A stretch of DNA of 46,228 bases from a virus: positions 1-46,228 of the IMG/VR virus record IMGVR_UViG_3300021376_000109. One strand, given 5' to 3'. Under the pieces are notes generated by a model that did not search any database, was not told the origin of the DNA, and saw nothing but the letters and a program-made list of their open reading frames with translations. Below, in pieces: positions 782 through 46,133 of this stretch. Numbering within the stretch: the first letter of the stretch is position 1; each line of letters starts with the position of its first letter. The translations under genes and the position numbers were made by a program.

Positions 782-2519
782 ATACAATTTAATTTCTAAG
801 GCTTTAAAAACCATGGAACTACAACGCTCGTCTCAAGAGCTCCAAGACCAGAATAAACCATTATTTATTGAATCTATACCAGGTGTAAGAATTAAACGCT
901 TAGATAACAAAAGCTATTCCTATTCGGATAGACACAGAGGTAATTGGTTTAAACCTGAATATGATTTAACTGAATTACAAATTGCTCAGGATACAGATGC
1001 GTATATATTTAAAGCAATTCAAAAGAAGGTTCATAAAATCATATTAGCCGGCTGGGAATTTGTAGGTAAGGATAGAGAAGCAGTAGCTTATATTAAAAAA
1101 CGTTTAAGAGAAATTGAAATAGTTTCTGGTATGCCATTTGATATGATGATTATTAATACTGCGCATGATTTAGCTAGATATTCTAATTGCATGTGGGTCA
1201 AGGTTAGAGATTCAGAGGCATCTAGTGGCGTAATCAGACCACATCTTAATAAAGAATTAGATCCTGTTGCGGGTTATTTTTTATTACCATTTGAAACCTT
1301 ATGGTTTAAGGTTAAACCTAATGGTGAAATTAAGAAGGTTATGCAAATAATGCATAACACAGGTAAGTCAAAGGAATTTGCTCCAGAGGATGTAATACAT
1401 TTTTATACTAATAAAAAACCTGGGTTTACAATGGGTACTCCTGAGATTTTAGCTGTATTAGAGGATGTTGCTTTATTGCGTCGTCTAGAGGAAAATGTAG
1501 AATCTATGGTAGATGCAAATTTGAATCCTTTATTCCATTACACTGTAGGTACAGACCAGCATCCTGAACGTTATGGACCTGATGGCACTAAGGAAACAGA
1601 TATAGTAAGGTCTACTATTGAGTATATGCCTAGTGGTGGTATTTTTGTGTCTGACCATAGACACAAAATAGAGGTGCTTGGTGCAGAGGGTAAAGCTTTA
1701 AATGCAATTGAATATTTAGATTATTTTAAGAAAAGAGTATTTGCAGGGTTGGGAGTTACACCTATGGATATGGGTGAAGGAGATTCTGCAAATAGCAGTA
1801 CTGCATCTACATTATCTAAATCTGCAATTCAAGATGTAGAAGCATTGCAGGCTAATATTAAAATGTTTATAGATACCTATGTTATTAACGAGCTATTAAT
1901 AGAAGGTGGTTTTTCAGATGTTGTTATGGATCCTGAAAAACGTGTAGAAATTAAGTTTGGTACTGTTGATAAGGAAGAAAAGTCTAAGCTCGAGAATCAA
2001 ACAATTCAGCTTTGGTTAAATAAATTAATTACCGAGGATGAAGCTCGTAAACGTTTAGGTGAAAAACCAATTGAGGAGTTAGATAGAGATAAGAACTATT
2101 ATAAGCTTTACGAGGAACCTGCAGCATTATTAAAGATAATGGGTAGTCCAGTTAGTGCAGCTGCGCAAGCATTAGCTGCAGCACCAACAAGTAATATTAC
2201 TGAATCTCAATTAAGTAAAGAATCTAAAACTAATAATACAAATAACAATAAGAAGACTAATAGCAATGTAATTAGTAATGCACCTAGTCGCCAGTCAGCT
2301 AATCAGGCTAGACCAGCGAACCAGCAAGGGGTTCGCTCAGCACCTAAACTAACTAAAGATAATAGTAGTAACGAAAAAAGTAGTGTCAAGGGCTTGGACG
2401 AAAATAATCAGAAAAATTTGAATTACTTGATTTTTGACACTATAGATAAGATATTATCTACAGATGATATAGACTCAGTTTTAGATAACTTTATTGAATC
2501 AATTAATAATAAAGATTGA
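774..2519 (+). CDS. Portal protein
   Basis: A 581-residue protein with the features of a phage portal, the dodecameric ring at the DNA-entry vertex of the head. An N-terminal region leads into segments typical of portals: aromatic, charged stem and wing sequences (PGFTMGTPEILAVLEDVALL, then RRLEENVESMVDANLNPLF), a VFAGLGVTPMDMGEG segment, and an acidic region with EDEARKRLGEKPI. Residues from about 460 on are a low-complexity Ser/Asn/Ala/Gln tail followed by a short acidic helix. The ATG at 774 is preferred over a TTG at 768 because AGGGAG at 760-765 sits at normal distance. Length fits large-phage portals. It lies directly upstream of the prohead protease and capsid genes, the usual head-gene order. 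The Ser/Asn tail may be flexible and the final helix may bind scaffold or terminase (inference). Confidence 0.85.
   Translation: MSKYNLISKALKTMELQRSSQELQDQNKPLFIESIPGVRIKRLDNKSYSYSDRHRGNWFKPEYDLTELQIAQDTDAYIFKAIQKKVHKIILAGWEFVGKDREAVAYIKKRLREIEIVSGMPFDMMIINTAHDLARYSNCMWVKVRDSEASSGVIRPHLNKELDPVAGYFLLPFETLWFKVKPNGEIKKVMQIMHNTGKSKEFAPEDVIHFYTNKKPGFTMGTPEILAVLEDVALLRRLEENVESMVDANLNPLFHYTVGTDQHPERYGPDGTKETDIVRSTIEYMPSGGIFVSDHRHKIEVLGAEGKALNAIEYLDYFKKRVFAGLGVTPMDMGEGDSANSSTASTLSKSAIQDVEALQANIKMFIDTYVINELLIEGGFSDVVMDPEKRVEIKFGTVDKEEKSKLENQTIQLWLNKLITEDEARKRLGEKPIEELDRDKNYYKLYEEPAALLKIMGSPVSAAAQALAAAPTSNITESQLSKESKTNNTNNNKKTNSNVISNAPSRQSANQARPANQQGVRSAPKLTKDNSSNEKSSVKGLDENNQKNLNYLIFDTIDKILSTDDIDSVLDNFIESINNKD
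1643..1668 (+). repeat. Perfect 10-bp inverted repeat
   Basis: TTTTGTGTCT (1643-1652) and AGACACAAAA (1659-1668), 6-base loop, inside the portal gene. Confidence 0.85.
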
Positions 2520-2530
2520 TAGGAGTGCAC

Positions 2531-5059
2531 ATGACTAACATTATTAAATTTAATGATTATGTTGCTATCAATCCTGATAACAAAATCTTGTCTTTGAATA
2601 AAGAGGAAAAGATTAAGCTTACTGATAATTTAATTACTAATTCCTATACTAAAGGAAAAGGGTTAGTAATTACATATGATTTAAGTCATTCAGGTAGAAA
2701 GATTAACAACAGAATTTATTCTGCAAGAGGACAACGTAAAGGCGTAGAGTCTTTAACAAATCCTTTTAACAAGCCAATTCTCAGAAATCACGACCAGCAA
2801 TCAGATCCAATTGGTAGATTTATTGGTGGCGAATATCAAGATTTATCTGAGTATATTATGGGTCATTTAAGAAATGATTTAGGCGCATATAATCAATTAA
2901 GACATGCATTTGATTCAGACGAACCAGAGCATATTTATAAATCTTTAAGTAAGTATTCCTTATTAAAGAATAGTGAATGGCCTGGTGTTGGTAGAATGCG
3001 TGTAAAAGCTAATATCACAGATGAGGATGCAATTAAAAAATTCCTTGATGGTAGGTATTTAACCTTTAGTGCAGGCACCTCTACTAACAGACATGTTTGT
3101 TCTATTTGTAATGAGGATTGGGCTTTAAATGGTCCTTGCGAGCATGAACATGGTAAAGAATATGACGGAGAAATGTGTGTATTTATTTGTGGTGATTTTA
3201 ATGTACATGAAGGCTCAGTAGTAAATACTCCAGCTGATAATTTTTCTCAGGTAGTATCTATTGAGAGAATGACAGACTCTGAATTACCAACAAATGATAA
3301 ACAAATAAAAGATAGCAATGCAATTGAAATCATTTTAACTGATTTTGAAATGGATAACGAAAATGACATTCAAAACGAGAGAGGATCTTCCGATGAGTAC
3401 AACACCCAAGAAACAACCAATAAAACCCAAGAAGACAACAAAGAAGCCGAAAAAGTATTAGATTTCAATTCTCAACTTACAGATGAAAAAACCTTTAAGG
3501 TTCCTGCTGGTGCTAAAGGTAATGCTCAAAAAGTTCTTGATTGGAAGGAAAAGCATGGCTCTGATGTCAAAGGTATGACAGCTGTTGGTTGGGCACGTGC
3601 AAGGCAATTAGCTACTAAATCAGAAATTGGTTTATCTACTGTTAAGCGCATGGCTATGTTTAATCGCCATAGAAAAAATGCAGAAGTAGATCCTAAATTC
3701 AAATCTGAACCATGGAAGGATCGAGGATACGTAGCATGGTTAGGTTGGGGTGGTACATCTGGTGTCGACTGGGCTATTAAAATCTCTGAAGCTAACAATG
3801 ATGAGCTAGAAGCAGATGATGCAGAGCGTTCTTCTCCAGAAGGTAAAGGTGCAAAAACTCCGGCTAAACCATCTGAAAGAATTAAAGGATCTAAAGTTAA
3901 TAAGGAGGGTTCTGCTTCTAATTCTAGTAAATCAATAGAAGTAGGCTCTGCACTTGAATCCTTGAAGGCTAAAGTCTCTGCGCACAATGAAAAGCATGGA
4001 GATAAGGAAGGTAAGAAAGTAACCTTAGGAATGTTAAAGGCAGTTTATCGTAGAGGTACTGGTGCTTTCTCTAACACTCATAGGCCTGGTATGTCGCGTT
4101 CAGGATGGGGTATTGCAAGAGTTAATGCATTCTTGAAATTAGTAAGTAGTGGCAGCCCTTCTAACCCCAAGTACACTACCGATAATGATTTGCTTCCAGC
4201 CGGGCATCCTAAAAAATCAAATAATAAATCAAAACCACAGAAGGACTTCAATATGTCGAATGAAAATAATGAATTAGATAATGATTTGCTAGAACAAGTA
4301 AATGAACCAACTCAAGAAGAACAACAAGCTCATGATGAATCATTCAATGATGATTTAGAAATTGATTGGTTTACATTTGATTTAGCTTTAACTGCAATTA
4401 TGGGTGACAAGGCTTTATCTACTGAAGCTAGAAATAGTTTGCCAGATGATGTATTCTGTGGTGCAGATAGGTCTTTCCCTGTACCAGATTGCGCACATGT
4501 AACATCTGCTAGAAAGCTTATTGGTCAAGCAAAAACAAGTGATGCTGTAAAGAAAACTATTTTAACTTGCGTAAATAGAAAAGCTAAAATATTAAAATGC
4601 GATAAAGAGAATGATATGGAATTCCAAGAATTAAATAAGAAATACGAAGATGCTTTAGAAAAAATTAAAACTTTAGAAGAAAAAATTGCTAAAGTTCTTG
4701 AAAAATTTGCATCTAAAGATTTACAACAAGATAGTACCCAAGAAAATGTCAAAAATGATGAAGAAATAAATGTCAAAAATGACACAAATATTAATGTAAA
4801 TAATGACATTAATTTTTCATCAAAAAATGACATAAATAACCTTGACTTGCTTAATAAAAAAATAGAAAATCCTTCTGAACATTTAGGATTAACTGATAAA
4901 GTAAATGGTGTTACTAAAACTAATCTAGGTGCGTTTGAACAAAAGGTAGTTGATACCTACATTCGTATTAAAGATGAATATGGTTTTAATTCGGCAGAAC
5001 ATTATTTACAAAGTCAAGCGGGCTATTTACCACGTGGCTTTCATCCTGATAAAGTTTAA
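2531..5059 (+). CDS. Prohead protease-scaffold multidomain fusion
   Basis: An 842-residue protein that appears to join several phage modules. Residues 1-185 resemble a prohead maturation protease, with a candidate catalytic His87 (RNHDQQSDPIGR) and a candidate Ser180 in TFSAGTS. Residues 188-220 hold a zinc-finger-like cluster (C190, C193, C203, H205, H207, then CVFIC). Residues about 322-418 (KGMTAVGWARARQLATKSEI) and about 472-562 (VYRRGTGAF, then DNDLLPAGHP, resembling DUF5824) are basic domains often seen in large-phage head genes. Residues about 614-690 (CGADRSFPVPDCAHVTSARK) are another such domain. A coiled coil follows at about 696-730, then an eight-residue repeat around VKND at 739-770, and a tail ending in the stop at 5059. 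AGGAG at 2521 sets the ATG at 2531 rather than the TTG at 2516. The protein probably cuts head proteins during maturation and serves as scaffold. Domain edges are approximate. Confidence 0.75.
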   Translation: MTNIIKFNDYVAINPDNKILSLNKEEKIKLTDNLITNSYTKGKGLVITYDLSHSGRKINNRIYSARGQRKGVESLTNPFNKPILRNHDQQSDPIGRFIGGEYQDLSEYIMGHLRNDLGAYNQLRHAFDSDEPEHIYKSLSKYSLLKNSEWPGVGRMRVKANITDEDAIKKFLDGRYLTFSAGTSTNRHVCSICNEDWALNGPCEHEHGKEYDGEMCVFICGDFNVHEGSVVNTPADNFSQVVSIERMTDSELPTNDKQIKDSNAIEIILTDFEMDNENDIQNERGSSDEYNTQETTNKTQEDNKEAEKVLDFNSQLTDEKTFKVPAGAKGNAQKVLDWKEKHGSDVKGMTAVGWARARQLATKSEIGLSTVKRMAMFNRHRKNAEVDPKFKSEPWKDRGYVAWLGWGGTSGVDWAIKISEANNDELEADDAERSSPEGKGAKTPAKPSERIKGSKVNKEGSASNSSKSIEVGSALESLKAKVSAHNEKHGDKEGKKVTLGMLKAVYRRGTGAFSNTHRPGMSRSGWGIARVNAFLKLVSSGSPSNPKYTTDNDLLPAGHPKKSNNKSKPQKDFNMSNENNELDNDLLEQVNEPTQEEQQAHDESFNDDLEIDWFTFDLALTAIMGDKALSTEARNSLPDDVFCGADRSFPVPDCAHVTSARKLIGQAKTSDAVKKTILTCVNRKAKILKCDKENDMEFQELNKKYEDALEKIKTLEEKIAKVLEKFASKDLQQDSTQENVKNDEEINVKNDTNINVNNDINFSSKNDINNLDLLNKKIENPSEHLGLTDKVNGVTKTNLGAFEQKVVDTYIRIKDEYGFNSAEHYLQSQAGYLPRGFHPDKV
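4747..4832 (+). repeat. 24-bp periodic TGTCA/TGACA array, copy A
   Basis: Four units of exactly 24 bp. The TGA(CA) element occurs at 4756 (degenerate), 4780, 4804 and 4828. The second unit contains the 14-bp element TGTCAAAAATGACA (4771-4784), an imperfect dyad with arms TGTCA and TGACA. In the protease-scaffold frame each unit encodes eight residues of the form NVKND plus three. The 62 bp at 4771-4832 align without gaps to 16551-16612 at about 51 of 62 positions by hand count. Confidence 0.85.
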
Positions 5060-7745: not shown

Positions 7746-7753
7746 AAAATAAT

Positions 7754-7769
7754 CTTGTAGAAATACAAG
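7754..7769 (+). other. GAAA-tetraloop stem-loop after capsid gene
   Basis: CTTGTA (7754-7759) and TACAAG (7764-7769) form a 6-bp stem closed by GAAA, a GNRA-type tetraloop. It starts 9 bases after the capsid stop codon and 18 bases before the terminator. As RNA it could protect or mark the 3' end of the capsid message. No function is demonstrated. Confidence 0.6.
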
Positions 7770-7784
7770 TCGTATAATATAAAT

Positions 7785-7812
7785 GAGGGGAGCTTAATTG
7801 CTCCCCTTTTTT
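7785..7812 (+). terminator. Rho-independent terminator after capsid gene
   Basis: A perfect 7-bp stem GGGGAGC (7787-7793) / GCTCCCC (7800-7806), loop TTAATT, and then a run of six T. This is the clearest intrinsic terminator in the window. It lies in the only intergenic gap above about 40 bases (7746-7830). Transcription of the capsid genes probably stops here in part, which would give more capsid than neck and tail message. A TATAAT at 7773-7778 lies inside the gap but lacks a convincing -35 box. Confidence 0.9.
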
Positions 7813-7830
7813 ATTTATAGGAGATATAAA

Positions 7831-8016
7831 ATGAGTTGGTTTAAAGACCGAAAAGATTTAGAACAAAATTACGAAGATGACTTTAATTACGACCCTACCA
7901 ATCCTTATACTTCTATGGTAGAGGACGAAGATTTTATAGAAGTTAAAATAGGTGCAAAGCAAAATGACAATAAATCTACTGACGAATCTAAGCTACCCAC
8001 AGAACCAATCAAGTAA
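7831..8016 (+). CDS. Small acidic protein, 61 aa
   Basis: A 61-residue, strongly acidic protein beginning MSWFKDRKDLEQNYED, with a patch of Asp, Glu and Tyr and a Thr/Lys-rich C terminus. AGGAG eight bases before the ATG gives the start; a TTG in frame at 7798 lies inside the terminator stem and is not credible. Its last 53 bases overlap the following Ig-like gene in another frame. I recognise no family. It is the first gene after the terminator and may be a small neck or head-completion protein, but there is no motif to support that. Confidence 0.55.
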   Translation: MSWFKDRKDLEQNYEDDFNYDPTNPYTSMVEDEDFIEVKIGAKQNDNKSTDESKLPTEPIK

Positions 8017-16257: not shown

Positions 16258-17253
16258 ATGCCAAAGGGTTTAGCAGATGATAAGGGGATGGTTTTGTTTG
16301 GAGACCCTTTATCTGAGAAAGCATTGAATGCTTTAAGACGTAATTCTCCAACTGCAGATAGTATTTTAAGAGCAATACCTAAAGAGGCTTTTGAACAAGC
16401 AAAAGCCGAGCATCAAGCGCTTGTAGATAAAATCAAATCAGAGTTAAATATAGCAGAGACTCCTCAGGAAGCACCTAAGGAAAAAGCTTTAACCAGACTA
16501 CAAGCTAAAAAACTAGGCTTAAAATATGTCAATAATAGTGAAAATATTTCTGTCAAAAATGACACAAAAAAAACTGTTAAAAATGACACTTATTTTTCAT
16601 CAATTATTGACACTTTTACACTTTGTTCCTTTGACAATATAAAAAAAATCCCTACACTATACCTTAGTGTAGAAAACAGAAAAACAAAAGAGCTTTACAA
16701 GGATGACGTCTCTGTAGAGTTTTTTAATTTCTGGTATGAGTTTTTTGAAAATAAAAAACAACCTATAACTATTAAACTAATCAAACAGAAAGAAATCACC
16801 ATGAATTTAGATGATGAATTAGAATCATTAAGAAGCTCAGGAAATGACAATCCCGAATTAGCCATGAAGGCTCAAATCTTTTCATTACTAGAAGCTAAAT
16901 CAGATGCCCCTAGCGAGAATCAAATTAAGCTATGGAAAGAAGAATTTGGAAGTACTGGAGTTCATGTAATGGCTTTTGGTCAGGATGATGTTTATATTTA
17001 CCATCATTTGACTAGAAAGCAATGGCGCACTATTAAAGAAATTATGGCTAAAACCGAACCTGAACAAACAGATGAGGTAGAGGAGAAGCTAAAGCAAAAG
17101 GTTTGCATGGGTTGTGTATTATATCCTAAGTTGAATCCTAACTGGGTTGAGAATTGTAAGGCTGGCGTAATTGATTCTCTTTACCAGATGATACTTCTTA
17201 ACAGCGGATTTTTAACTCCACAACAAGCAATGCTATTAACTACTCAGCTATAA
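16258..17253 (+). CDS. Tail-assembly-chaperone-like protein with insert
   Basis: A 331-residue protein with AGAGGG directly before the ATG. Residues 1-95 are a charged N-terminal domain (ALNALRRNSPTADSILRAIP, then AFEQAKAEHQALVDKIKSEL). Residues 98-120 carry the VKNDT repeat. Residues about 121-180 are Phe/Lys-rich (VEFFNFWYEFFENKK). Residues about 182-331, starting at MNLDDELESL, form a chaperone-like domain with YIYHHLTRKQWRTIKEIM and a Cys pair in KVCMGCVLYPKL. In other phages such chaperones bind the tape-measure protein during tail assembly. Position between tube and tape-measure-slot genes supports the assignment. The ordinary chaperone begins around residue 182, so the first half is unusual. 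The ATG at 16801 has only a weak site and I keep 16258 as the start. Confidence 0.55.
   Translation: MPKGLADDKGMVLFGDPLSEKALNALRRNSPTADSILRAIPKEAFEQAKAEHQALVDKIKSELNIAETPQEAPKEKALTRLQAKKLGLKYVNNSENISVKNDTKKTVKNDTYFSSIIDTFTLCSFDNIKKIPTLYLSVENRKTKELYKDDVSVEFFNFWYEFFENKKQPITIKLIKQKEITMNLDDELESLRSSGNDNPELAMKAQIFSLLEAKSDAPSENQIKLWKEEFGSTGVHVMAFGQDDVYIYHHLTRKQWRTIKEIMAKTEPEQTDEVEEKLKQKVCMGCVLYPKLNPNWVENCKAGVIDSLYQMILLNSGFLTPQQAMLLTTQL
16551..16636 (+). repeat. 24-bp periodic TGTCA/TGACA array, copy B
   Basis: TGACA occurs at 16560, 16584, 16608 and 16632, exactly 24 bp apart. The first unit is TGTCAAAAATGACA (16551-16564), identical to that at 4771-4784. TTTTTCAT lies 33 bp after the first TGACA here as in copy A. 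The reading frame is the same as in copy A and encodes VKNDT twice. Confidence 0.85.
16652..16672 (+). repeat. 8-bp inverted repeat next to array B
   Basis: CTACACTA (16652-16659) and TAGTGTAG (16665-16672) with a 5-base loop, 15 bases after the last TGACA. Within the chaperone-like gene. Confidence 0.8.
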
Positions 17254-38500: not shown

Positions 38501-41500
38501 CTCGTAAGTATGGTGCCTCAGATATTGATAATGGTTTAGATGAAAAGCAATTCCATTCTACTCATAAGCTATTAGGTTGGTGCTTATTTAGAAACGAATT
38601 AAAGCATTTTGGAAGATATAAAAAACAAAGATTATTTCAAAGAGGTGAATCTAAGGATGTAGTAATTACAAAAGAAACTCATATAGGTGCAGGAGACCCT
38701 AGTACTTCTGCATCTATGTTTGAATTCTTTATGTCGAATTGGGGTTATTTTGTAGCTGCTGAAGTTGCTTTATGCTTTGTTAATTTTGGAGCATTAGTAG
38801 GTGCTGGAAAAGAAGTAGCCAAGGTCGCTGTTAAAGAAGTAGCAAAGGAAGCAGTTGAATCTACTGCAGCTACAGCAGGTGCAGAAGTAGTTGAAGCGGT
38901 GGCAAAAGAAGCTGTTGAGGATGCTGCTAAGGTTAGCGGTACTACGGTATTAAATATTTTTAGTAGAAATGTATTTAGAGCATTTGGTTTTGGTAAAGAA
39001 GTAGTTCAGAATATACCCAATTGGTTAGGTTTAGGAAAATTAATTAGATTTGTAAGTGGTTCGGGATTGAATATCAATGCTAGCACTAAATTGATTAATG
39101 CTGAATTAGCGGGAATAGAAAAAGCAATAGTAGATGAGGGATTTGTTTCATCACAAGTTTTATCACAAACTGATTTAATTTTAAAAATAGCAAATCAAAA
39201 TGTTGTAGATGCAGCTGCGCAAACAAGTAGATTGAGTAATGTTTTAGCTTATTTAGGTAGTTTTATTGGTTGGCAAACTCAAATTGTAACTAGAGGCTCT
39301 ACTTTAGCAAGCAGGCTTTGGTCAATCAATCCAACTAGCTTGAATGTTGCATTAGAGCAATATGTTGCTAAAGGTTTTACTGGCAGTATAGAAAATCAAG
39401 CAACTAGAATTGCTATACGTAATTTGGTTTTAACAGAGATAACAAATGCAAGTACTAATCTTTGGGCGACTGGATTGAGAAAAGCATTTCAAGCAGTATC
39501 GTTAGGTGCAATGAGAGCAGTTAAGCTTGGAGTTATACTACCTGTGCTCACTTATAGTGTTGGTTTAGTTTGGGATACGGTTTCTAGTGTACTTAGCTAT
39601 TTTTATAATTTAGTTATGGGTACATTTAATCCGTACAGTGAAGCTTTAGTTTTATCTCCTCAGGATGATGCTTTGTATGCACCTCACCCTGATAGATATA
39701 TTGTCGGTTCATCGGGATTGGCTTCAGTTCAATCAGATGAAGCTATTAAACGTTTAAAAAGAGCTTTGGCTATAGGTTATTTATTTTATGACCCAAGTAA
39801 AAGTACTTCAACTAACGAGGATATTTTATTAAATAGAACCTTGTTGATGGATAAGCGTTTAAATGCTAAACGTGGTGAGAATGTTTTTAAGATAAAGAAC
39901 TCTACTATATGGGAGATATTCCATGAGATGTCATTAAGACATCCTGGATGGGTTTATGGTGCACGTCAATATGGACAATCCTTAGAATATAGAATGTTTT
40001 TTGGTTTGCCAAATCAAAGATATTTTGGCAAACCATTAGGCAATTTAGAAATTAAACGTTTAAATTCTATTATAGAAGCTACTAGCAAAGAGGACGAAGA
40101 CAAGATAATTAGTTTAGTAAGCAAAGAAACTAGAGCTAAAATAGATATTCTATTAACAGAAGAAGGAACAAAAAGTAAAAGAGTCGATATTATGAAAACT
40201 CTTTTACTTGAGGAATGGACTCGTATAACTAAAGACAGATTTATACCTTTTAGAAATTACCATTTAATTTCTAGTAAGTATAATTTGGTGGCGAATAATA
40301 TATCTGGTTCAAATAATGATGTAATCAATGAGATTGCTATACTTTACTTAGAGAATAACTCTGGATCAATGCCTCAATATACTCAACGTGTAATAAGGGC
40401 TCATGACAATATGACAGAGGATCAAGTACATGCAAAGGCTGTAAAATATGATAATTGTAAAGGCTTTAATGCAGCATTGAGATATGGTACTGCTGAGTTA
40501 GTTAACGCGGCAAAAGAAATGTATCGCGGCGAAATAATAATACTTGGAAACCCTCAAATCAATCCTTATGATATCTGTATCTTAGAGGACGAGTATTCTG
40601 AAATGTTTGGTCCAATTGAAGTAGAAGCAGTTACTCATATATTTAGTATGGATACTGGTTTCATTACAGAGATAAAACCAAACGCTTTAGTAACTGCAAA
40701 TGAAGGACTTACTTACCCTGTATTAAATTCTGTTGCTATGTATGACATTGGCAGAGAGCTCTCTAAAAAAGCAGATTATAATTTTAGGAGTTTAGGAGAT
40801 GATCAAAAGAAAACACTAGTAACATCTATAGTAGATAAATGGCTTGAGGATAATGTTAAATTTATGACAATGCCTTGGGAAAAAGACCCTGCTGTAGAAT
40901 TAGGATTTACGGGAGCTATAAAATTACAAACTGGTGAAATAAATCCAGACTTTAAACAAGTTTTAATTCAACGAACCTTACAAGAATTAGAAAAAGGAAA
41001 CATAATTTTGCAATCAGATATATTGAATCCTAATGCAAATTTAGGTGGCTTTCTAACTACAGAAAATATAAGTGCTACACTTGCTTCTTTAGGTTTAGGT
41101 TTAGCATTAGCAAAAAATCGTTTAGGAGCTACTCCTGCTGTACTTGTAGGCTTATTAGGATTAGGTTCTTCTCAAGCACCTACAATATTAGATAGTCAGC
41201 TTTCTACTCCAGGAAGCTTTTTAGTAAATAAACTCTTAACAGGTGATATGTTGATTTCTCAGGTTACAGATGGCAATTTAATTCAGGTTTATCCTTTGTT
41301 TAAAAATAACAGACCTCTAGTTTATGGAGGTTATCAAAAAATCTCTTTGAATAAATCTGTAAAAAATAAGCTAGGTAATATATTCTTTGAAATATCTGAA
41401 GCAATGACTATGTTTAATGCTATCTCTAAAGAATATTCTAGTAGAGAAAATATTATCTATAATAGACCTACATTTGTAATAGAGCAAACTGGTAATATAG

Positions 41501-42903: not shown

Positions 42904-44133
42904 ATGGCAACACTTAATCCCATTTCTTTGACTAATTATACCGAGAATCTCCGCAACAGATTATCTAATAGTATTGGAGCGACTGGAACTAGCTCTGATT
43001 CTGTATTGAATACACTAGCTGGAGTAATAGGCTCTGAGACTAATAATTATATTAATTTGATGAATGCAAACATCTATTCCTTAAGCGTTTTAAACGCAAC
43101 TGGATTAGAGCTAGATAATTTGATTTTTAATATGTATGGTATTTCGAGGATACCAGGAAATAAAGCTAATGCTACTGTTGGTTGTAGATGTGTAGAGTTC
43201 TATGTAGACGAAGGTACATTTGGCACTATAAATAATGGCAATAATATTACTATACCTAGAGGTACCTTGCTTTCTGTAAATTCTGTATTTGATACAGCTG
43301 GAATCATACAGTATGAAACAGACGCAGAGTACATATTGAGCGTCGGATCAAGTAGAACATACATTGGTGTAATTGCACGTTCTACAGGCGCTCAATACAA
43401 TTTAGATAGAGGTTTAGTGTTTCATAATTTTCTAGGTTATGTAGATAGTGCTAATTCATCCTTAAAGGTAAGAAACAATTTTCCTATTATAAATGGTAGA
43501 GATAGAGAATCAGACACTTCGTTTAGAATTAGAGCTGGAGAATATATAAATAGTAGAAGAAGCTATAGCTTAGAGCAAATACGTAATGCGGGTATAAACG
43601 TGCCAGGTATTTTAGAGTTAAGAGTAATTCCTAATTACTATGGACTAGGTACAGTTGGTGTTATTTGTATTGGTCAAGAGCAAGAAATGACAGATGAGAT
43701 AGTTGCTACCGTGCAACAAAATTTAATAAATGTAAATTTATTGGGTACAGAGATTACTGCTTTTAAACCTGTTTCTATTTCAGTAGCTTTAACAGTAAAA
43801 GCTAAAAAAGCTAACAATACAGTTACTGAGAACAAAATGAAAGAATTGATAAAAAAAGAAGTTGATGATTATTTTTCTACTATTACATCTAGAAATAACT
43901 TTAGTTTTAACCAATTGAATAATATTTTAAATAATTTATATGCGTCTAAAGGAAGTGTTTTTTCTTCTCTTAATGAAGTGCCTTTAACAGAAGTAAAAAT
44001 TCATAAAACAAGAGATTCGCAGACAGAAACAGTTTCTTTGACAAGAGAAGCATCAAATAATCTTTATCCTATTAGAGATGATGAAGTACTTTATTTTGAT
44101 CCTAATTCTCTCAGATTAGAGGTTGTACGATGA
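42904..44133 (+). CDS. Baseplate J-like (gp6-type) wedge protein
   Basis: A 409-residue protein with the layout of the gpJ/gp6 wedge family. Residues about 1-80 are a helical start that ends with NATGLELDNLIFNMYGISRI, the typical J signature where long helices precede a Gly-rich turn. Residues about 90-200 are strand-rich (ITIPRGTLLSVNSVFDTAGI). Residues about 195-330 include DRESDTSFRIRAGEYINSRR and VPGILELRVIPNYYGLGTVG, which occur in J-type proteins near the dimer contact. The C terminus has the helix MKELIKKEVDDYFSTI. In contractile tails it forms the wedge ring that joins hub to periphery. It lies just after the gp25-like gene, and the next gene starts in an ATGA overlap. Confidence 0.7.
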   Translation: MATLNPISLTNYTENLRNRLSNSIGATGTSSDSVLNTLAGVIGSETNNYINLMNANIYSLSVLNATGLELDNLIFNMYGISRIPGNKANATVGCRCVEFYVDEGTFGTINNGNNITIPRGTLLSVNSVFDTAGIIQYETDAEYILSVGSSRTYIGVIARSTGAQYNLDRGLVFHNFLGYVDSANSSLKVRNNFPIINGRDRESDTSFRIRAGEYINSRRSYSLEQIRNAGINVPGILELRVIPNYYGLGTVGVICIGQEQEMTDEIVATVQQNLINVNLLGTEITAFKPVSISVALTVKAKKANNTVTENKMKELIKKEVDDYFSTITSRNNFSFNQLNNILNNLYASKGSVFSSLNEVPLTEVKIHKTRDSQTETVSLTREASNNLYPIRDDEVLYFDPNSLRLEVVR

Positions 44134-46133
44134 AAACCTTTCAAGGACAGCATTATCGTAATCGTTTCCCATTGTATTCTAGGATTAGAATTGATGACAA
44201 TTCTGTAGGTGCAAAAATATTAAATGTAATAGGTGATGAATTTAAGTTAACAGAGCTTTTGATAAAACGTTTCTCTAAGCAAACAAAATGCTTAGAGGAA
44301 ATGCCAGTCTTTATGCCTTCAGTTAGATATGTTTTTAATTTTAATGCCGACTCTTATAAAATAACAAATTCTACCCCTAGTGAATCTACTTCAAATTATT
44401 ACAATGCATATAAAAATTCATTGTCTAGATACGAAATAGATAACCTGTTAGTTTTAAACTGTATTGCGAATTCTGGTATTACAGTTAAAGAATCTAGAGT
44501 ACTTGAGGATTCCTTTTTATTGCCGCCTACAAGAATATCTAATTTAAGAATTGAATCTGAACCAAACAAGAATCCTTTAATTTGCGAATTGAATCTAGAG
44601 ACTATCAAATATTTAAATGAATTTATCTCTCCAAATGGAGAGCACTTATATATTGAAATACCAAGAGTATTTAATAATCAATCTATCAAATATTATACAT
44701 CAGGATACGAGGTTCCTATATATCAAGATTATAGTCATATAATCTTGAGAGGCTATGACTATAATAATAAACCAATTGAAGAACATATACCTTTAAATCT
44801 AAACGTCTTTTACAGAACAAAAAGACGTTTTATGAAGTTAAGCAATTTATCTATGGATTCTTATAATGGCATAATGGGTGGTCCAGCAGTAGAATGTGAT
44901 GGCTTTAAGGGTTTGGTTAGAATTTACAGTTATCCCTGTTTTAAGAAATCTAAAATGAATTACGAAAGCATAGAGCTAGTAGCAAACAACTTTTATTTAA
45001 ATGATTTGTTTAGTACTTACTACTCTGCTTGTAGAATTGATATTGAAAGCAATAAGTTAAAATATTATTTTGATAACTATAACAATGCTAATAAAGAGCA
45101 ATATAATTACTTGTATAACGCGAATCTACAATCAATAGATTTTGATTTAATACATAAGCTCTTTTTAGAGCAATCCCTATCTTTAGATGCTGAAGAAAAT
45201 ATACTTTCATTTGATTATGATTATTTTACTAATCATTTAGTTTGTTTAACTGATAAGGGTAAACTAAAATACTACTCTATTGAGTTTACTGATTTTGTAA
45301 CTCCAGAGATACGTAGAACTAAAGCTATTAGTCTTGAAATAGAGAATACATTACAAAGAATAACGTTGGATTCTGATCCAGCTAAAAATCAATATGAGTT
45401 GCATTTATTTGATAGGCATTATGTTTATAAGGTTAGTACTATGCTTATCTTTAGAAGAACTCCTACTTTAAAATTAAATCAACAAACCTTTAAACTTGAG
45501 TTTCTTAACGATTTAGGTCAATGGTCAGAATCTTTGTATAGGTTTGATAATTTAGAATACTATTCAAATCTTTCAGGTAATGAGGATTTTAATAATTTAG
45601 TAAATACGTCATACATAAATAATTTTAAAATTCCTGTAACCTTTGATTCTGAGGGTCAATATGATTTTTATGTTTTAAGCGCGCACTATTTAAATAATAA
45701 CTATAACGTCTTTAATGAGATGTTAAACGCTTATACTCCTGATAAATTAATAAAATTCATAAATGACAATTTAGATAAACAAGATTTAAGAGAAGAGGAT
45801 TCAAGTATAGTCTTTGAATTAAATTATCATTCTGTTTTAGTAGATAAGCTTTCAACAGCAGGTACATTTGATTTAACTCTCTTAGATGCTAATTGGATTA
45901 CAGATAATCAAAATAAAGAGCTTTTTATTAGCTTTGAAAATGTCAATAATTCATTAAAAATTTATGTCAAAAATGACACAAATATTTTAGAGAAAATTTA
46001 CACTTTTGACCAGCATTTTGATTATTTAATACATGATAATAATACAGGCAGATGTATATTTCTAGAGGAATACTCATCGATTGATATAACCTTTAATACT
46101 AGCAGTAACAAATCAGTTACATTAAGGTATTGA
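44130..46133 (+). CDS. Baseplate/tail protein, 667 aa
   Basis: A 667-residue protein directly after the J-like gene, where contractile phages usually place a gp7/gpI-type wedge protein. The first 60 residues are helical (SRIRIDDNSVGAKILNVIGD, then LTELLIKRFSKQ). The remainder is mostly beta-rich and Tyr/Asn-heavy, with segments such as LYIEIPRVFNNQSIKYYTSG and IEHIPLNLNVFYRTKRRFMK, consistent with stacked beta domains in a wedge or fibre-like structure. The C terminus includes YVKNDTNI (residue about 612), encoded by a 22-bp element identical to one in the protease-scaffold gene. The ATG overlaps the previous stop (ATGA). Assignment to a specific wedge gene is tentative. It may be a receptor-proximal or fibre-attachment part. 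Confidence 0.45.
   Translation: MKTFQGQHYRNRFPLYSRIRIDDNSVGAKILNVIGDEFKLTELLIKRFSKQTKCLEEMPVFMPSVRYVFNFNADSYKITNSTPSESTSNYYNAYKNSLSRYEIDNLLVLNCIANSGITVKESRVLEDSFLLPPTRISNLRIESEPNKNPLICELNLETIKYLNEFISPNGEHLYIEIPRVFNNQSIKYYTSGYEVPIYQDYSHIILRGYDYNNKPIEEHIPLNLNVFYRTKRRFMKLSNLSMDSYNGIMGGPAVECDGFKGLVRIYSYPCFKKSKMNYESIELVANNFYLNDLFSTYYSACRIDIESNKLKYYFDNYNNANKEQYNYLYNANLQSIDFDLIHKLFLEQSLSLDAEENILSFDYDYFTNHLVCLTDKGKLKYYSIEFTDFVTPEIRRTKAISLEIENTLQRITLDSDPAKNQYELHLFDRHYVYKVSTMLIFRRTPTLKLNQQTFKLEFLNDLGQWSESLYRFDNLEYYSNLSGNEDFNNLVNTSYINNFKIPVTFDSEGQYDFYVLSAHYLNNNYNVFNEMLNAYTPDKLIKFINDNLDKQDLREEDSSIVFELNYHSVLVDKLSTAGTFDLTLLDANWITDNQNKELFISFENVNNSLKIYVKNDTNILEKIYTFDQHFDYLIHDNNTGRCIFLEEYSSIDITFNTSSNKSVTLRY
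44273..44297 (+). repeat. Perfect 9-bp inverted repeat
   Basis: CTCTAAGCA (44273-44281) and TGCTTAGAG (44289-44297), 7-base loop, in the 667-aa gene. With one bulge it extends by TTTC/GAAA. Confidence 0.75.
44723..44748 (+). repeat. Perfect 10-bp inverted repeat
   Basis: TCAAGATTAT (44723-44732) and ATAATCTTGA (44739-44748), 6-base loop, in the 667-aa gene. Confidence 0.85.
44801..44830 (+). repeat. Perfect 11-bp inverted repeat
   Basis: AAACGTCTTTT (44801-44811) and AAAAGACGTTT (44820-44830), 8-base loop, in the 667-aa gene. Confidence 0.85.
45965..45986 (+). repeat. TGTCA/TGACA element, single copy C
   Basis: A 22-bp stretch beginning TGTCAAAAATGACA is identical to 4771-4792. An upstream TGTCA at 45941 lies exactly 24 bp before it. 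It lies in the same codon phase as copies A and B and encodes VKNDTNI, at the C-terminal end of the 667-aa protein. Confidence 0.8.

Follow-up and report, generated by a model that had tools for sequence, protein, structure and literature searches.

A 24-bp dyad repeat array in the predicted scaffold linker of a tailed phage may be a dual-coding nucleotide recognition element

The window, meaning the whole stretch of DNA that was analysed, is a viral contig of 46,228 bases which encodes portal, protease-scaffold, capsid, tail sheath and baseplate J proteins. Two of its genes contain arrays of a 24-bp repeat (arrays 1 and 2) and a third contains a single shorter copy (site 3). The coordinates are given in Table 1.

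Table 1. Repeats, palindromes and host genes, in positions of the window.
Feature	Position	Strand	Remarks
Protease-scaffold gene	2516..5059	+	Hosts array 1; inferred scaffold role (gene order, coiled coil)
Array 1	4747..4842	+	Four gapless 24-bp units (starts 4747, 4771, 4795, 4819); core TGTMAAWAATGAC
Single perfect hyphenated dyad of array 1	4771..4784	.	TGTCA-AAAA-TGACA
Array 1 as one long imperfect palindrome	4746..4832	+	Unit 1 pairs with unit 4; TGATGAAGAAATAAATGTCA pairs with TGACATTAATTTTTCATCA
Conserved tail-region gene	16258..17253	+	Hosts array 2; family unknown
Array 2	16527..16622	+	Four units, register and frame as array 1; perfect dyad 16551-16564
Longest inverted repeat of the window (array 2)	16522..16617	+	Arms 16522-16555 and 16584-16617, 71% complementary
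Gene with site 3	44130..46133	+	Follows the Baseplate_J gene; homologs in other phages of the family
Site 3	45964..45986	+	ATGTCAAAAATGACACAAATATT, 23 nt identical to 4770-4792; frame as array 1 (VKNDTNI)

The first-pass annotation had described repeats at exact 24-bp steps, and this spacing is exact, with TGATG/TGACA at 4756, 4780, 4804 and 4828. The repeats are real but slightly longer than had been claimed, since each array has four units. The second array, reported about 11.8 kb away, lies 11,780 bp downstream with an identical frame and an identical TTTTTCATCA spacer, and the DNA identity of 51/62 is exact when counted from 4771 and 16551. Over four units the two arrays are identical at 72 of 99 positions. 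Array 1 encodes VKNDEEIN VKNDTNIN VNNDINFS SKNDINNL and array 2 encodes VNNSENIS VKNDTKKT VKNDTYFS SIIDTFTL. The TGTCA-N4-TGACA dyad is present as described, but it is perfect in only one unit of each array. A search of the whole window for further copies found site 3, which had been missed earlier.

The repeats stand out from the rest of the window. A gapless scan with the 99-bp array has its best match at 16527 (72/99) and its next at 45941 (56/99), and the best unrelated place scores 52. The dyad TGTCAN4TGACA occurs three times and is absent from 99 of 100 codon shuffles. Among the exact repeats of the window the longest measures 23 nt (4770/45964), and codon shuffles reach no more than 21; these 23 nt are common to two genes and an 18-nt identity is common to three. 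All six V[KN]ND peptides in the proteins of the window fall within array 1, array 2 and site 3. The arrays are very AT-rich (80%), and a start lies roughly 125-245 nt downstream of them. Another 24-bp tandem repeat at 38799-38848 encodes an Ala/Glu-rich stretch of a 3031-residue protein. Matches to a sigma-70 promoter show no excess near arrays 1 and 2 (shuffle mean about 4) and number six at site 3 for 4.1 expected, and a promoter array was rejected.

The protease-scaffold gene has an in-frame internal start at 4253 with a Shine-Dalgarno-like AGAAGGA, and the conserved Met at this position opens the scaffold part. Array 1 is predicted to fall within a disordered linker of this part (residues 157-221, counted from the start at 4253), where the pLDDT of the structure model is below 50. 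In the window and 21 relatives, the coiled coil and the conserved C-terminal domain are joined at this position by a linker that varies in length and composition. Array 2 lies ahead of a conserved internal Met at 16801, in a variable linker of the tail-region gene (residues 94-149, modelled with low confidence). It is absent from all 13 homologs of this gene and sits inside about 75 residues that they lack; these homologs are distant, and the insert extends far beyond the array. The Met codons at 16801 and 4253 are both in frame, and most have a Shine-Dalgarno-like sequence in relatives, which suggests nested shorter products. Inside the tail-region gene, a strong hairpin of 11 pairs at 16649-16675 precedes a T8 run on the minus strand. 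It resembles an intrinsic terminator of that strand and lies in an insert absent from the distant homologs. Site 3, unlike arrays 1 and 2, is outside a predicted disordered linker. Alignments with the distant homologs L112, L201 and L202 run across the site with a gap of two residues, so site 3 does not represent the insertion of a cassette.

Array 1 is kept gapless at 4 x 24 bp in three other lineages (L005/L006, L131/L183 and L097/L100, the last being the same contigs as L128/L129), and the core TGTMAAWAATGAC is conserved across the array-bearing lineages. The perfect 14-bp dyad occurs only in the window and L128/L129. It is not supported as the conserved feature, since TGTCAN4TGACA is missing from L005/L006 and L131/L183, two of the four lineages. 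In L132, whose capsid protein is 82% identical, the array is read as at most a relic. Relatives more distant than L132 have no array and an ordinary linker at that position, and no copies were found in the related contigs (about 1.1 Mb) that fall outside the array-bearing lineages. Viral contigs yielded no array-bearing close relatives of either the 16258 or the 44130 gene, and the contigs of the relatives stop short of these genes. A DNA-likeness search against named phages gave chance-level matches only. A single motif in G014 is in another frame of an unrelated gene and was taken as chance. The AAAAATGACACAAA letters are common to unit 2 of array 1, array 2 and site 3, and the other lineages are without them. 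Since these letters are confined to the lineage of the window, they seem to be explained most simply by intragenomic copying that took place once the nearest relatives had split off.

The core codons are retained in relatives beyond expectation, and the spacers drift. Conservation in the cores is similar at the three codon positions, with a third-position difference of 0.06-0.31 versus 0.38-0.48 for the remainder of the scaffold part; the spacers differ about equally at all codon positions. An amino-acid-matched test was applied to two pairs without a sequence in common. The same codon was used in 13 of 13 cases between the window and L128 cores (p=0.008) and in 11 of 11 between those of L005 and L131 (p=0.009), so these values rest on 13 and 11 informative codons only. 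The spacers of the same pairs show no codon effect (p=0.28 and 0.97, respectively). Other pairs gave p of 0.05-0.29, and tests on whole arrays are weaker (p of 0.005-0.32). GAC makes up 20% of Asp codons in the window versus 9 of 10 in the array stretches, and GTC makes up 5% of Val codons versus 6 of 8 array-stretch Val codons before Lys or Asn. The over-conservation of core codons points to a constraint on the nucleotides, with few codons behind the argument. Support for the array as a nucleotide signal is moderate. The earlier proposal, in which a signal at the level of DNA or RNA also encodes a peptide, gains from this codon conservation and from the exact identity of 18-23 nt across three genes.

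The palindrome of array 1 has a folding z of -4.7 and ranks second of 926 windows. Folding exceeds that of synonymous recodings in array 1 (z -4.0), array 2 (z -3.9) and L128 (z -5.1), and is weak or absent by the same measure in L005 (z -1.9) and L131 (z -0.7). RNAalifold found little covariation and an unfavourable consensus covariation term, so a conserved RNA hairpin was rejected. Since the hairpin is weak in L005 and L131 and covariation is poor, it seems to be a by-product or a lineage feature and not the conserved core. There is no match to a known RNA family or tRNA. The strongest-folding stretch of the window is 7751-7850, directly after the capsid gene, and is probably a terminator.

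Viral contigs and prokaryote genomes were scanned for VxND motifs at 24-bp spacing. The scan yielded, among others, five unrelated phage or prophage gene groups with at least two exact GTCAAAAAYGAC units at 24 bp (L086, L092, L094/L106, L192 and L199). Family matches for all five are to replication initiators or DnaD/O-like helicase loaders. These arrays resemble those of the window in unit and step, but they lie in an initiator gene. The unit is read in at least two frames in four of the five groups, so it is clearly a DNA signal there. L087 has three near-exact units and no family match. The comparison genes were found by the motif itself and their likeness is partly by construction; they therefore show the use of such arrays elsewhere and not origin status here. 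L091, a viral contig, has an intergenic pair of TGTCAAAAATGACA at 4860-4900, 24 bp apart and just upstream of a gene, and this 14-mer is identical to that of the window. The L091 contig also encodes a protein of 383 residues with tandem repeats, and one of its genes looks E1-like by eye.

Phage lambda has four iterons with A-tract dyads inside gene O, and these can pair into hairpins (PMC7466680). In J02459 they read ATCCCTCAAAACGAGGGA and variants, each a half-site, an A-tract and a half-site, at steps of 20, 24 and 23 in three frames. A central TCAAAA(A)YGA is common to the lambda iterons and the initiator-gene arrays (L086, L092, L094, L106, L192 and L199). The window arrays share this center and the hairpin pairing with lambda, as well as the layout of four tandem A-tract hyphenated dyads at 20-24 bp within coding sequence. 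Each array has one perfect and several imperfect dyads, in keeping with the tandem imperfect inverted repeats of about 18-24 bp in lambda-type arrays. Unlike lambda, the window arrays are always in one reading frame and lie in structural genes; the hosts are the protease-scaffold, tail-region and Baseplate_J-neighbour genes, not a cognate initiator gene. Since they lie outside an initiator gene, the element would work like a lambda-type iteron array but is not classed as one.

Several other explanations were weighed. The main rival is that only the peptide matters. A linker octapeptide, V-[KN]-N-D-x-x-x-x, would have been duplicated in tandem in the scaffold linker and copied in frame to another linker, and the DNA likeness would reflect shared ancestry. 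This is possible, although it seems less probable than a nucleotide signal. It agrees with the single frame of all copies, the gapless 8-residue register in four lineages and the variable-length linkers at the array position in all relatives. Tandem V-x-[GN]-[ND] octapeptides also occur in other phage proteins, such as L098, where positions 745-1785 contain repeats VKNDVHME VGNDLFIK that presumably resemble the T4 gp5-type beta-helix repeat V-x-G-x. However, core synonymous sites are over-conserved while the amino acids change freely, the rare codons GTC and GAC are retained, and site 3, which lies in an alignable region and not in a linker, is exact over 23 nt with flanks that bear little likeness to array 1. 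PARCEL coding repeats are also tandem with DNA dyad symmetry, but they have amphipathic units of 25 residues (PMC2996958); the window unit has 8 hydrophilic residues that are predicted to be disordered and is not of this type. A small mobile palindromic element, as proposed in the first-pass annotation, is very unlikely. Rickettsia palindromic elements are about 150 bp, numerous, and read in frame within unrelated genes (PMC10969869). The window also has imperfect palindromes of about 90 bp in frame in two unrelated genes, and array 2 has an insertion-like setting. Its sites differ in being roughly 100-bp arrays of 24-bp direct repeats, with three in 46 kb of an incomplete genome. A clean insertion with empty sites is not seen, since site 3 is no insertion and the insert around array 2 far exceeds the array. 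Target duplications were not seen either, and there are no copies in distant relatives. A cellular mobile repeat was rejected, as the strict 24-bp pattern is found in none of 85,000 prokaryote genomes and a looser one gives 14 scattered, mostly unrelated repeats.

The array could also be an O/DnaD-type replication origin outside its initiator gene. The four A-tract dyads at 24 bp, the AT content, the hairpins and the unit seen in initiator genes all fit, so the origin suggested earlier holds as to form. It is nevertheless unlikely, because the host is not an initiator gene, several arrays occur per genome and GC skew has no break at the arrays. Phage_rep_O and HTH_36 domains are absent from eight long contigs (seven array-free relatives and that of L091), and the window itself is a fragment. 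If the repeats are O/DnaD-type iterons placed in the structural genes of a tailed phage, they may be extra origins, or decoys that titrate the initiator protein of a prophage or plasmid resident in the cell; the odds of this are poor. Ectopic lambda origins block lambda growth (PMC4488673), so initiator decoys could work in competition between phages. The least likely explanation is an RNA hairpin in the late mRNA that controls processing, or translation of the downstream capsid gene or an internal start. The distance to a downstream start and the excess folding of array 1, array 2 and L128 are consistent with it, but the weak folding in L005 and L131 and the unfavourable covariation term are not.

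The preferred reading, with a probability of about 45%, is a dual-coding, iteron- or operator-like nucleotide recognition array in the scaffold linker. Since relatives keep the exact DNA letters better than the protein alone needs, the array is probably a protein-docking site that is also translated. It would consist of four hyphenated-dyad sites in about 100 bp, with a core TGTMA-AWAA-TGACA at 24-bp spacing, and would be tolerated because a disordered scaffold linker accepts almost any hydrophilic, stop-free peptide. The phage of the window would have a second array in the linker of the tail-region gene, and a third gene would supply one strong site. The sites may be bound cooperatively by a dimeric DNA-binding protein, which the phage probably encodes outside the 46-kb fragment. 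The perfect dyad would bind most strongly and its degenerate neighbours more weakly, as with lambda O on the ori iterons or a repressor on an operator array. Such binding might control the start of replication, late transcription or DNA handling. The exact 18- and 23-nt identities across genes, the predicted linker location, the initiator-gene parallels and the L091 pair count in favor of a binding array. True iterons often fall in several frames, and the single frame of all copies counts against it, as do the loss of the perfect dyad in two lineages and the few informative codons. The eight long contigs without Phage_rep_O or HTH_36 also count against it, though the relatives among them are without arrays too.

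If the nucleotide reading is true, this element is dual-coding, with protein-binding sites lodged in disordered linkers of the proteins that assemble the virion and away from the replication gene that is the usual home of such iterons. The disordered linkers of phage structural proteins may then hide regulatory DNA, and codon over-conservation could be used as a detector in searching for it.
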